A stretch of DNA of 64,000 bases from the IMG/VR virus record IMGVR_UViG_3300027906_000002, positions 115,403-179,402 of that record; one strand, written 5' to 3'. The notes under the pieces were generated by a model that had not been told where the DNA came from, ran no database searches, and worked only from the letters and a program-made list of their open reading frames with translations. The translations under genes were made by a program, and so were the position numbers. Shown piece after piece: positions 26,810 through 28,234 of the stretch. Numbering within the stretch: the stretch's first letter is position 1; each line of letters starts with the position of its first letter. Origin of the DNA: a virus.

Positions 26810-27601
26810 ATGACAAGCTTGATTGATCCAAAGAAATATACTGAGACAGTGGGGCGTTTACGCTCCTTTTTTTTAGCCAAAGGATTCTATGAAGTACATA
26901 CACAAAACCGTTTAAGTATACTTGCTGCTTGTGAAGATCCAGAAACAGTAGCAACATATAATTACGGTGGTAATATATGGCCACTACCACAAACAGGTCA
27001 GATGTGGCTTGAACATGAATTACTTTCTAACCCTTCAGCAGAAGGGTTTTTCTGTGTCTCAACGTCTTATAGGGCAGAACCAAACCCAGTACCAGGAAGA
27101 CATGAAACGATCTTCCCTATGTTTGAGTTTGAAATGAAGGGGGATGTAGAAGATCTTAAGAGCATGGAGATTGATCTATGCAAATATCTAGGACTTCCTG
27201 AGTTAGATATAGAAACTTATGAAGACTGGTCTAATAAATTCAACACGAAAGAACTAGACCATGACCATGAAAAGGCAATTGGTTCTGGTATGATTACAGA
27301 GTTCCCTGAATGGACATCACCTTTCTGGAACATGTCTAGGAACGATGATGGAACCAGTAGAAAGATTGATGTTATCTTAGGTGGCATGGAAACCATTGGT
27401 AGTGCAGAACGCAGTACTGATAAAGAACAGATGCGTAATACCTTCTACACCATATCTGATGGTGGGTATGCTCAACTTATTATCGATAAGTTTGGTAGAA
27501 GTAGAGTAGAGAAAGAACTAGAAGACTTCCTCTCATTTGATTTCTTCCCTCGTTCTGGAGGTGGGATAGGAGTCCAACGTCTAATGTCAGCCCTTTCATA
27601 G
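26810..27601 (+). CDS. AsnRS/AspRS-like class II synthetase core without anticodon-binding domain (asparagine synthetase-like)
   Basis: 263 residues. Class II motifs are visible: a motif 1-like Phe-Leu-Ala-Lys-Gly-Phe-Tyr-Glu-Val-His-Thr (about 21-31), motif 2 as SYRAEPN then GRHETIFPMFEFEM (about 86-108), an active-site stretch ending Gly-Gly-Met-Glu-Thr-Ile-Gly-Ser-Ala-Glu-Arg-Ser, and motif 3 GGGIGVQRLM near 250-259. The middle (Glu-Phe-Pro-Glu-Trp-Thr-Ser-Pro-Phe-Trp) corresponds to the Tyr-Pro...Phe-Tyr segment of AsnRS. The N-terminal OB-fold that binds anticodons is absent and no start lies upstream to supply it. This matches the layout of archaeal AsnRS-derived asparagine synthetases, so the product could be asparagine rather than Asn-tRNA. 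A tRNA with a GUU anticodon follows eight bases later. Confidence 0.75.
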   Translation: MTSLIDPKKYTETVGRLRSFFLAKGFYEVHTQNRLSILAACEDPETVATYNYGGNIWPLPQTGQMWLEHELLSNPSAEGFFCVSTSYRAEPNPVPGRHETIFPMFEFEMKGDVEDLKSMEIDLCKYLGLPELDIETYEDWSNKFNTKELDHDHEKAIGSGMITEFPEWTSPFWNMSRNDDGTSRKIDVILGGMETIGSAERSTDKEQMRNTFYTISDGGYAQLIIDKFGRSRVEKELEDFLSFDFFPRSGGGIGVQRLMSALS

Positions 27602-27609
27602 GGCTACAT

Positions 27610-27695
27610 TGTGAGGTGACGAAATTGGTAAACGTGTCAGTCTGTTTAACTGATGTTCCTGGCGGGACTTGAAGGTTCGACTCCTTCCCTCACAG
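27610..27695 (+). tRNA. tRNA with class II (long variable arm) fold and GUU anticodon
   Basis: 86 bases fold fully: acceptor TGTGAGG/CCTCACA (7 bp), D stem ACG/CGT around a loop with the conserved GG, anticodon stem TCAGT/ACTGA with loop CTGTTTA, a 17-base variable region with stem GTTCC/GGGAC, T stem GAAGG/CCTTC with TTCGACT, discriminator G. No CCA is encoded. Anticodon bases 27644-27646 are GTT (Asn). U1-A72 and G73 fit Asn, but the long variable arm and D-arm layout are Leu/Ser type, and position 37 is U instead of a purine. Either an unusual functional tRNA or a degenerate one; aminoacid identity is uncertain. Confidence 0.82.
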
Positions 27696-27727
27696 TTTAT
27701 GCATATATAATATACTTGATATTTATT

Positions 27728-28234
27728 ATGAATCATAGGGTAGTTGATAATTTTTTAACCCATCATGAGTTGGCACATCTACAAGAAGTATATCTTGAAG
27801 ATGACTTTCCTTGGTTTTGGGGACCAACAACTGTACCTTATGAGGGATCCAATTGTGAAAATGAATTAGATAACTATCAATTCTACCATCCATTTTATGT
27901 TCCAGGAATGTATAATAATACACCGTACTGGAACATACTCGATCCTATAATAAAAAAACTTGGTGTTAGATCTCTTCTAAGAATAAAGGGAAACTTAACT
28001 ACAAGAACTACAGAAATAGTTGAACATGGATATCATGTAGATTTTAAATGGGATGATTCTTTAACAGCAATTTACTATGTTAATAGTAATGATGGGTATA
28101 CCATATTTGAAGATGGTACTAAAATAGAAAGTGTAGAGAACCGTATTGTCATCTTCCCAGTCCATCATAAACATAGTGGTACTAGTTGTACTAACGAAAA
28201 AAGAAGAGTTATTATTAATTTCAATTACTTCTAA
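27728..28234 (+). CDS. 2OG-Fe(II) oxygenase-like protein
   Basis: 168 residues from the ATG at 27728; an in-frame ATG at 27653 is rejected because it lies inside the tRNA. The N-terminus (Val-Val-Asp-Asn-Phe-Leu-Thr-His) is typical of prolyl-hydroxylase-like proteins. Ligands: His-Val-Asp in GYHVDFKWD, distal His in VHHKHSG and Arg ten residues later in KRRVIINF. Substrate unknown; a protein or small-molecule hydroxylase is inferred. Confidence 0.78.
   Translation: MNHRVVDNFLTHHELAHLQEVYLEDDFPWFWGPTTVPYEGSNCENELDNYQFYHPFYVPGMYNNTPYWNILDPIIKKLGVRSLLRIKGNLTTRTTEIVEHGYHVDFKWDDSLTAIYYVNSNDGYTIFEDGTKIESVENRIVIFPVHHKHSGTSCTNEKRRVIINFNYF

Follow-up and report, generated by a model that had tools for sequence, protein, structure and literature searches.

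A tRNA-Leu body with asparagine-type anticodon and acceptor end and its AsnRS-like partner gene in viruses: a dedicated pair with a possible role in pyrimidine synthesis

What use does a virus have for a tRNA that is built like tRNA-Leu, carries the anticodon and acceptor end of tRNA-Asn, and has a pyrimidine directly after its anticodon? The question is raised by a stretch of 64,000 nucleotides from a virus (positions 115,403 to 179,402 of IMG/VR record IMGVR_UViG_3300027906_000002), which is termed here the window. The tRNA gene lies at 27610-27695, immediately behind a gene, called RS in the following, for a small protein that resembles the catalytic core of asparaginyl-tRNA synthetase (AsnRS). 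We propose, at a probability of roughly 45%, that RS and tRNA are a dedicated pair that probably handles asparagine and feeds viral pyrimidine synthesis rather than bulk decoding. An earlier, sequence-only reading described the tRNA and overlooked what turned out to be decisive, namely that a partner gene ends 8 nt upstream and that its family is linked to pyrimidine genes. The features concerned are as follows.

26810-27601, plus strand: RS, a 263-residue stand-alone class II catalytic core, AsnRS-like, with no anticodon-binding domain (PF00152, AlphaFold model, fold match)
27602-27609, plus strand: spacer of 8 nt between the RS stop codon and the tRNA (7-11 nt in nearly all close homologues)
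27610-27695, plus strand: class II tRNA, that is, one with a long variable arm, with anticodon GUU, U37, U1-A72 and G73 (ARAGORN, Rfam, covariation among homologues)
27642-27648, plus strand: anticodon loop CUGUUUA, with U33, G34-U35-U36 and the pyrimidine U37 (comparison of homologues)
27654-27670, plus strand: variable region, consisting of a long arm at 27655-27668 plus two unpaired U (covarying stem)

The tRNA is the only one that ARAGORN calls in the window (27609-27696, anticodon GTT) and the only one found in the 179-kb phage record. Rfam RF00005 matches 27610-27695 with 52.5 bits (E 2e-8; gathering score 29), which identifies it as a tRNA. The coordinates, U1-A72, G73, GUU and U37 given in the sequence-only reading agree with direct inspection of the DNA, with Rfam and with ARAGORN, the last of which had been suggested as a check. 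The acceptor stem has 7 bp (TGTGAGG/CCTCACA) and is followed by U8 and G9; the D stem has 3 bp (ACG/CGT), and the anticodon stem of 5 bp (TCAGT/ACTGA) closes the loop CU-GUU-UA. The variable arm, GUUCC-UGGC-GGGAC, forms 5 bp including one G-U and is separated by two unpaired U from the T arm, GAAGG-UUCGACU-CCUUC (5 bp). The discriminator is G73, and CCA is not encoded in the window gene.

The D arm and the variable arm are those of a tRNA-Leu and not of a tRNA-Ser. Among ordinary tRNAs the nearest by pairwise score are tRNA-Leu (best 22.6, as against 11.8 for tRNA-Ser), and a covariance model built for the tRNA finds tRNA-Leu as its top cellular matches, so that of the “Leu/Ser-like” body proposed earlier the Leu-like part holds and the Ser-like part does not. 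The anticodon and A73 of tRNA-Leu are missing, as GUU and G73 are present throughout the homologues. GUU, G73 and U1-A72 are the set of canonical bacterial tRNA-Asn and occur in 53 of 53 distinct close homologues, whereas the class I body of canonical tRNA-Asn is replaced by one with a variable region of 14 to ~30 nt, which forms a stem in most homologues. The tRNA is thereby confirmed as a chimera in which a Leu-like class II body bears an Asn-type anticodon, first pair and discriminator. The variable arm itself probably does not act as the chief identity element, because its length varies so widely and because it has been lost in some distant members (L102, L109 and L133; numbers with the prefix L are our own locus labels).

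Comparison of homologues shows that the stems covary strongly and that the loop keeps its oddities in most members. Across 26 diverse homologues the bases pair in 99.4% of alignment cells, compared with 39-50% for slid structures; both sides change at 23 of the 25 stem pairs, and the covariation is 0.733 against 0.207 in shuffles. In the 53 close homologues U1-A72, G73 and GUUU are invariant while the stems change, and so are the GG of the D loop and the two unpaired U after the variable arm; A1-U72 takes the place of U1-A72 in four more distant pairs. Several of the pair tRNAs have an encoded CCA. Of 93 distinct pair tRNAs, 88 have U37, a base absent at this position from all 144 other genuine tRNAs of the same DNA; two more apparent cases proved to be misread pair tRNAs. 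At position 33, nine distinct pair tRNAs have C and one has A. The elongator rule of U33 and a purine at 37, which all the other tRNAs of the same DNA keep, is thus broken by most of the pair tRNAs, the window copy having U33 and U37. The constancy of U37 led us to consider a four-base anticodon GUUU that would read AAAC/AAAU; G37 or A37 in five distinct pair tRNAs and the loop size of 7 nt speak against it, and we rejected it.

RS belongs to the class II synthetases by its match to PF00152 (tRNA synthetases class II D/K/N; 50 bits, cut-off 25), by its fold and by motifs 2 and 3, and at 263 residues it has no room for an anticodon-binding domain. No NCBIfam equivalog lies above its cut-off; RS reaches only 19.2 of the 342.6 bits of TIGR00457 (asparaginyl-tRNA synthetase) and 25.2 of the 389 bits of PRK06462 (archaeal asparagine synthetase A), and the PHROG match, 29758, is of unknown function. 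The AlphaFold model (pLDDT 93.1, pTM 0.90) has AsnRS cores as its best fold matches, led by human 8h53 (Z 25.9, rmsd 2.1 over 240 residues) and P. horikoshii AsnRS 1x54 (Z 25.4), a pair that we count as tied, as we do all Z differences below 1; AspRS, archaeal asparagine synthetase A and GenX come next. Sequence profiles also put AsnRS first. The RS motif QTGQMWLE resembles QSSQLYLE of AsnRS and not QSPQLYKQ of AspRS, with Leu after the Gln of the motif and no AspRS-type Lys, and the resemblance favours Asn over Asp as the predicted substrate. Arg88, Arg201 and Arg257 are invariant in 52 RS relatives, and by analogy with AspRS and AsnRS we take Arg201 to be the residue that binds the side chain of the substrate. 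The gene on the far side of the tRNA, at 27728-28234, falls in the PHROG 274 “DNA endonuclease V” family; the endonuclease name is doubtful, and the product matches the 2OG-Fe(II) oxygenase domain of Pfam at 26.9 bits (cut-off 27).

The coupling of RS and tRNA is apparent from a search that started from the tRNA. A DNA-pattern scan of viral contigs, blind to the RS gene, returned at least 80 loci. RS lies upstream on the same strand in 72 of the 80 listed, and the remaining eight are on contigs that end within 373 nt upstream, so that RS is present in all 72 evaluable loci listed, as expected of a synthetase and its dedicated tRNA; the gap has a median of ~18 nt and a maximum of 373. Conversely, all close-clade viral contigs retained with enough downstream sequence have the tRNA, 7-11 nt past the RS stop codon. 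The pair occurs widely among marine viruses; it is present in the cultured phages P-SSM7, P-SSM2 and P-SSM5 and in the independent contig L006. It sits at the gp23 region in P-SSM7 and in the window and elsewhere in P-SSM2, and RS and tRNA therefore move together. The tRNA-paired members are scattered over the RS tree, with at least five changes forced by well supported branches, and none of the residues that separate paired from unpaired RS lies in the catalytic motifs; both sets therefore probably share their chemistry. That RS and tRNA work together as a dedicated pair, as one viral unit, is well supported.

Some database entries for these loci need correction or comment. The tRNA-Asn annotated in the P-SSM2 record (L002 5825-5910; AY939844.2 164094-164179) is misplaced by ~2 kb; ARAGORN places it at L002 3813-3900, directly after RS, and the GU071092 numbering is shifted by the same amount. 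In P-SSM7 a tRNA of 73 nt, called Leu (UAA) and without a long variable arm, lies just upstream of RS (L001 2871-2943). RS and tRNA also occur on two contigs filed as Chloroflexi and Methylophilaceae metagenome-assembled genomes (MAGs; L215, L222), bins that are probably contaminated because the gene content looks viral.

RS itself is widespread beyond these phages. Chromosomal relatives, with 45-54% identity to a huge-phage member, are found in Patescibacteria, DPANN archaea, Gammaproteobacteria, Bacteroidota, Rickettsiales, Dependentiae and others. Huge phages (735 kb and 484 kb) and their relatives (L004, L005, L087-L089) have the RS gene without the tRNA; the L005 protein, used as a single query against the viral contigs, returned no relatives. 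A search of the RS-bearing bacteria and huge phages for a class II GUU tRNA elsewhere, by covariance model R1 and by DNA pattern, found only ordinary tRNA-Leu, L215 and L222 excepted. RS is not the sole AsnRS of its cells, since a canonical AsnRS is also encoded in 15 of 27 RS-bearing genomes. In the Patescibacteria L202, L210, L214, L220 and L221 the gene adjoins a Dus-like flavoprotein gene, tRNA-Gln and dnaX, and not pyrimidine (pyr) genes. A gene resembling PEP carboxykinase recurs beside RS in bacteria (L239, L240, L218, L243, L167, L172 and L180) and in a virus (L140).

The cellular context points to pyrimidine synthesis. Orotidine-5'-phosphate decarboxylase (OMPDC), orotate phosphoribosyltransferase (OPRT) or dihydroorotate dehydrogenase (DHODH), with family identities confirmed, is encoded within 4 kb of RS in 25 of 78 cellular loci. 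The first steps of the pathway are largely missing from the same organisms: in 27 RS-bearing genomes aspartate transcarbamoylase (ATCase) and the large subunit of carbamoyl-phosphate synthase (CarB) are each above cut-off in two, compared with 14 of 14 controls for both, and full-length dihydroorotase is above cut-off in two, with relatives below the cut-off in about nine more. Many of these are MAGs for which completeness is not stated; the genome of Pasteurella atlantica (L181) is complete. Within the Aureispira family (80 genomes) ATCase is absent from all three genomes that have RS and present in 72 of the 77 that lack it (p 7e-4), and CarB is absent from two of three and from four of 77, respectively (p 0.014). 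These data make the cellular RS a candidate entry enzyme of pyrimidine synthesis. At L167, L172, L179, L181, L183, L188, L191, L193, L203 and L211 RS lies inside pyrD/pyrE/pyrF clusters, and the genomes concerned are mostly without CarB, PyrB and PyrC.

Pyrimidine genes accompany the pair in several viruses as well. One viral operon (L334, 992-3107, reverse complement) runs DHODH, RS, 6 nt, tRNA and OPRT on one strand, and the marine viral contigs L330, L333 and L335 have the order DHODH-RS-tRNA. OMPDC, PEP carboxykinase and OPRT precede RS-tRNA in L327/L140, and OMPDC and a phosphoribosyltransferase (PRTase) stand beside it in L093 and L100. Eight viral contigs have an OMPDC of the L093 type, and seven of them carry RS and tRNA; among 50,697 phage records a matching OMPDC occurs in just 5. 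Overall, pyr genes are nearby in 9 of 34 paired viral RS loci as opposed to none of 50 unpaired ones. Placement in pyr operons together with the missing steps thus holds for the RS family, though not at the window locus.

The proposal of an entry role in pyrimidine synthesis follows from this association with pyrD, pyrE and pyrF in cells and several viruses, and from the replacement of ATCase in at least one bacterial family. Since paired and unpaired RS share an active site and the unpaired proteins seem to feed pyrimidine synthesis, it is economical to assume the same of the paired ones. RS would be the catalytic core of an AsnRS, its anticodon-binding domain either lost or never acquired, and would most likely adenylate asparagine or a close relative; motif, fold and the GUU/G73/U1-A72 set make asparagine the likely amino acid. 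In the tRNA, a tRNA-Leu body would have been given the acceptor set of tRNA-Asn (U1-A72, G73) and GUU; this tRNA would serve as private acceptor or cofactor for activated Asn or Asp, and U37, C33 or A33 and the foreign body would keep it out of normal decoding. Charging might be carried out by RS or by a host AsnRS or AspRS that reads GUU. Because RS has no anticodon-reading domain and yet GUU is invariant, something else must read the anticodon, and the candidates are the ribosome and host AsnRS/AspRS. The unchanging GUU speaks for the ribosome, the unusual loop against it; both would be accommodated if host AsnRS recognizes GUU and G73. The pair would open a viral route to dihydroorotate or orotate, and a speculative chemistry that dispenses with carbamoyl phosphate is ring closure from asparagine and a carbon at the level of CO2. 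More tentatively, a stand-alone AsnRS-type core may replace carbamoyl-phosphate synthase and ATCase, and perhaps dihydroorotase, as the start of UMP synthesis in some bacteria, and marine viruses may carry it with a private, decoding-impaired tRNA as carrier or cofactor.

Several observations weigh against a pyrimidine role of the pair. The weakest point is that the ring-closure chemistry by itself needs no tRNA, and we know of neither an earlier case of a tRNA in dihydroorotate synthesis nor an evident chemical reason for one. Near the cellular RS genes there is no tRNA of this kind, and the ancestral reaction of the family therefore need not involve one. GUU is unchanging in all RS-adjoining tRNAs, as decoding would demand; the loops of L102, L109 and L133 look normal (U33, G37), and the tRNA of the L108 pair is a canonical class I tRNA-Asn. 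No OPRT lies near the pair of the window, though one is encoded elsewhere in its genome, and of 83 loci in the close cyanophage clade only three have OPRT beside the pair. Matches of the viral PRTase and DHODH fall short of the Pfam cut-offs, and near-copy contexts inflate the counts, leaving at least six distinct viral arrangements.

The main rival, a possible reading though one that we lean against, is that of a private translation pair, in which RS charges the tRNA with Asn and the tRNA decodes AAC/AAU during infection independently of host tRNA-Asn and AsnRS, perhaps because the host makes its Asn-tRNA by amidation or because its tRNA-Asn is destroyed. The invariant GUU, the retention of U1-A72 and G73 in nearly all pairs, the AsnRS-like core, the full tRNA architecture with CCA encoded in several, and the lack of any other tRNA in the phage record are all in line with it. 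It sits poorly with U37, where the other tRNAs of the same DNA have a purine, with C33 or A33 in some copies, and with an RS family that is tied to pyrimidine genes in cells and viruses and is commonly found without the tRNA. Improbable, in our view, is an uncharged tRNA that acts as regulator or structural partner of RS: strict adjacency and a loop unsuited to decoding would suit it, but the conservation of the acceptor end, of G73 and U1-A72 and, in several members, of an encoded CCA is what a chargeable tRNA would show. The consistent deviation of positions 33 and 37 might also mark a spare tRNA-Asn whose altered loop and body escape a host anticodon nuclease and which RS charges; we regard this as rather improbable, as no anticodon nuclease is linked here, the pyr operons are left unexplained, and other such phage tRNAs come without a synthetase.

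The sequence-only reading had raised the prospect of charging with Leu or Ser and hence of misread Asn codons; host enzymes would be the ones to attach the amino acid. LeuRS requires A73, whereas G73 is compatible with SerRS. The class II body and G73 would thus allow serylation, but the body is Leu-like and not Ser-like, G73 excludes LeuRS, and the partner gene is obligate and AsnRS-like, which makes such misreading very unlikely. That the gene is damaged, point-mutated or misassembled was a natural suspicion as long as it was a single odd tRNA in one contig; it is refuted by the compensatory stem changes and shared features of dozens of distinct sequences, including the 53 close homologues, and by the copies in L006 and the three cultured phages. 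Homologues with an ordinary Leu or Ser anticodon, which would have suggested a faulty copy, were not found: every RS-adjoining homologue carries GUU, and the window tRNA is therefore not a point-mutated or misassembled one.

Among known systems, the closest in kind is CysRS*-SelC* (Mukai et al. 2017, reviewed in PMC9437257), where a synthetase without an anticodon-binding domain is likewise coupled to a dedicated, unusual tRNA. It differs in being class I, bacterial and devoted to UGA and selenocysteine, in contrast to the class II AsnRS core, GUU anticodon, viral setting and pyr context described here. PylRS-tRNAPyl also combines a class II core with a private, oddly built tRNA and is anticodon-independent, but its tRNA is a CUA suppressor for a new amino acid, unlike the GUU anticodon and the AsnRS-like pocket motif of the present pair. 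Two stand-alone class II cores resemble RS and have no linked tRNA: archaeal asparagine synthetase A, an AsnRS paralogue of similar size with a metabolic role that involves no tRNA (PDB 3rex/3p8t; fold Z ~24), and GenX/EpmA, a LysRS-like core that modifies the protein EF-P (fold Z 23.1). Phage tRNAs that evade anticodon nucleases share the departures in the anticodon loop, but have ordinary bodies and no reported partner synthetase (PMC10264068). The RS family appears as “tRNA ligase” T4-GC 194, given for P-SSM2 and P-SSM7 only, in a table that is not accompanied by discussion of tRNA pairing or function (Sullivan et al. 2010, PMC3037559). Beyond that name, neither the pair nor RS in pyrimidine synthesis was described in the literature searched, which was mostly without subscription papers and preprints. 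The pair as such thus has a precedent in kind in CysRS*-SelC*, and its union with pyrimidine genes is without precedent in that literature.

If the pair is translational, viruses would possess a minimal, self-contained natural Asn synthetase-tRNA pair that could be put to work as an orthogonal pair and that plainly illustrates the turning of a tRNA-Leu body to Asn identity. If the role in pyrimidine synthesis is true, a tRNA would have been drafted into nucleotide metabolism, and an unknown enzyme would start a highly conserved pathway in bacteria that lack ATCase. In both cases this tRNA family, by retaining U37, departs from a rule that all other tRNAs in the DNA examined here obey, and its function is directly testable.
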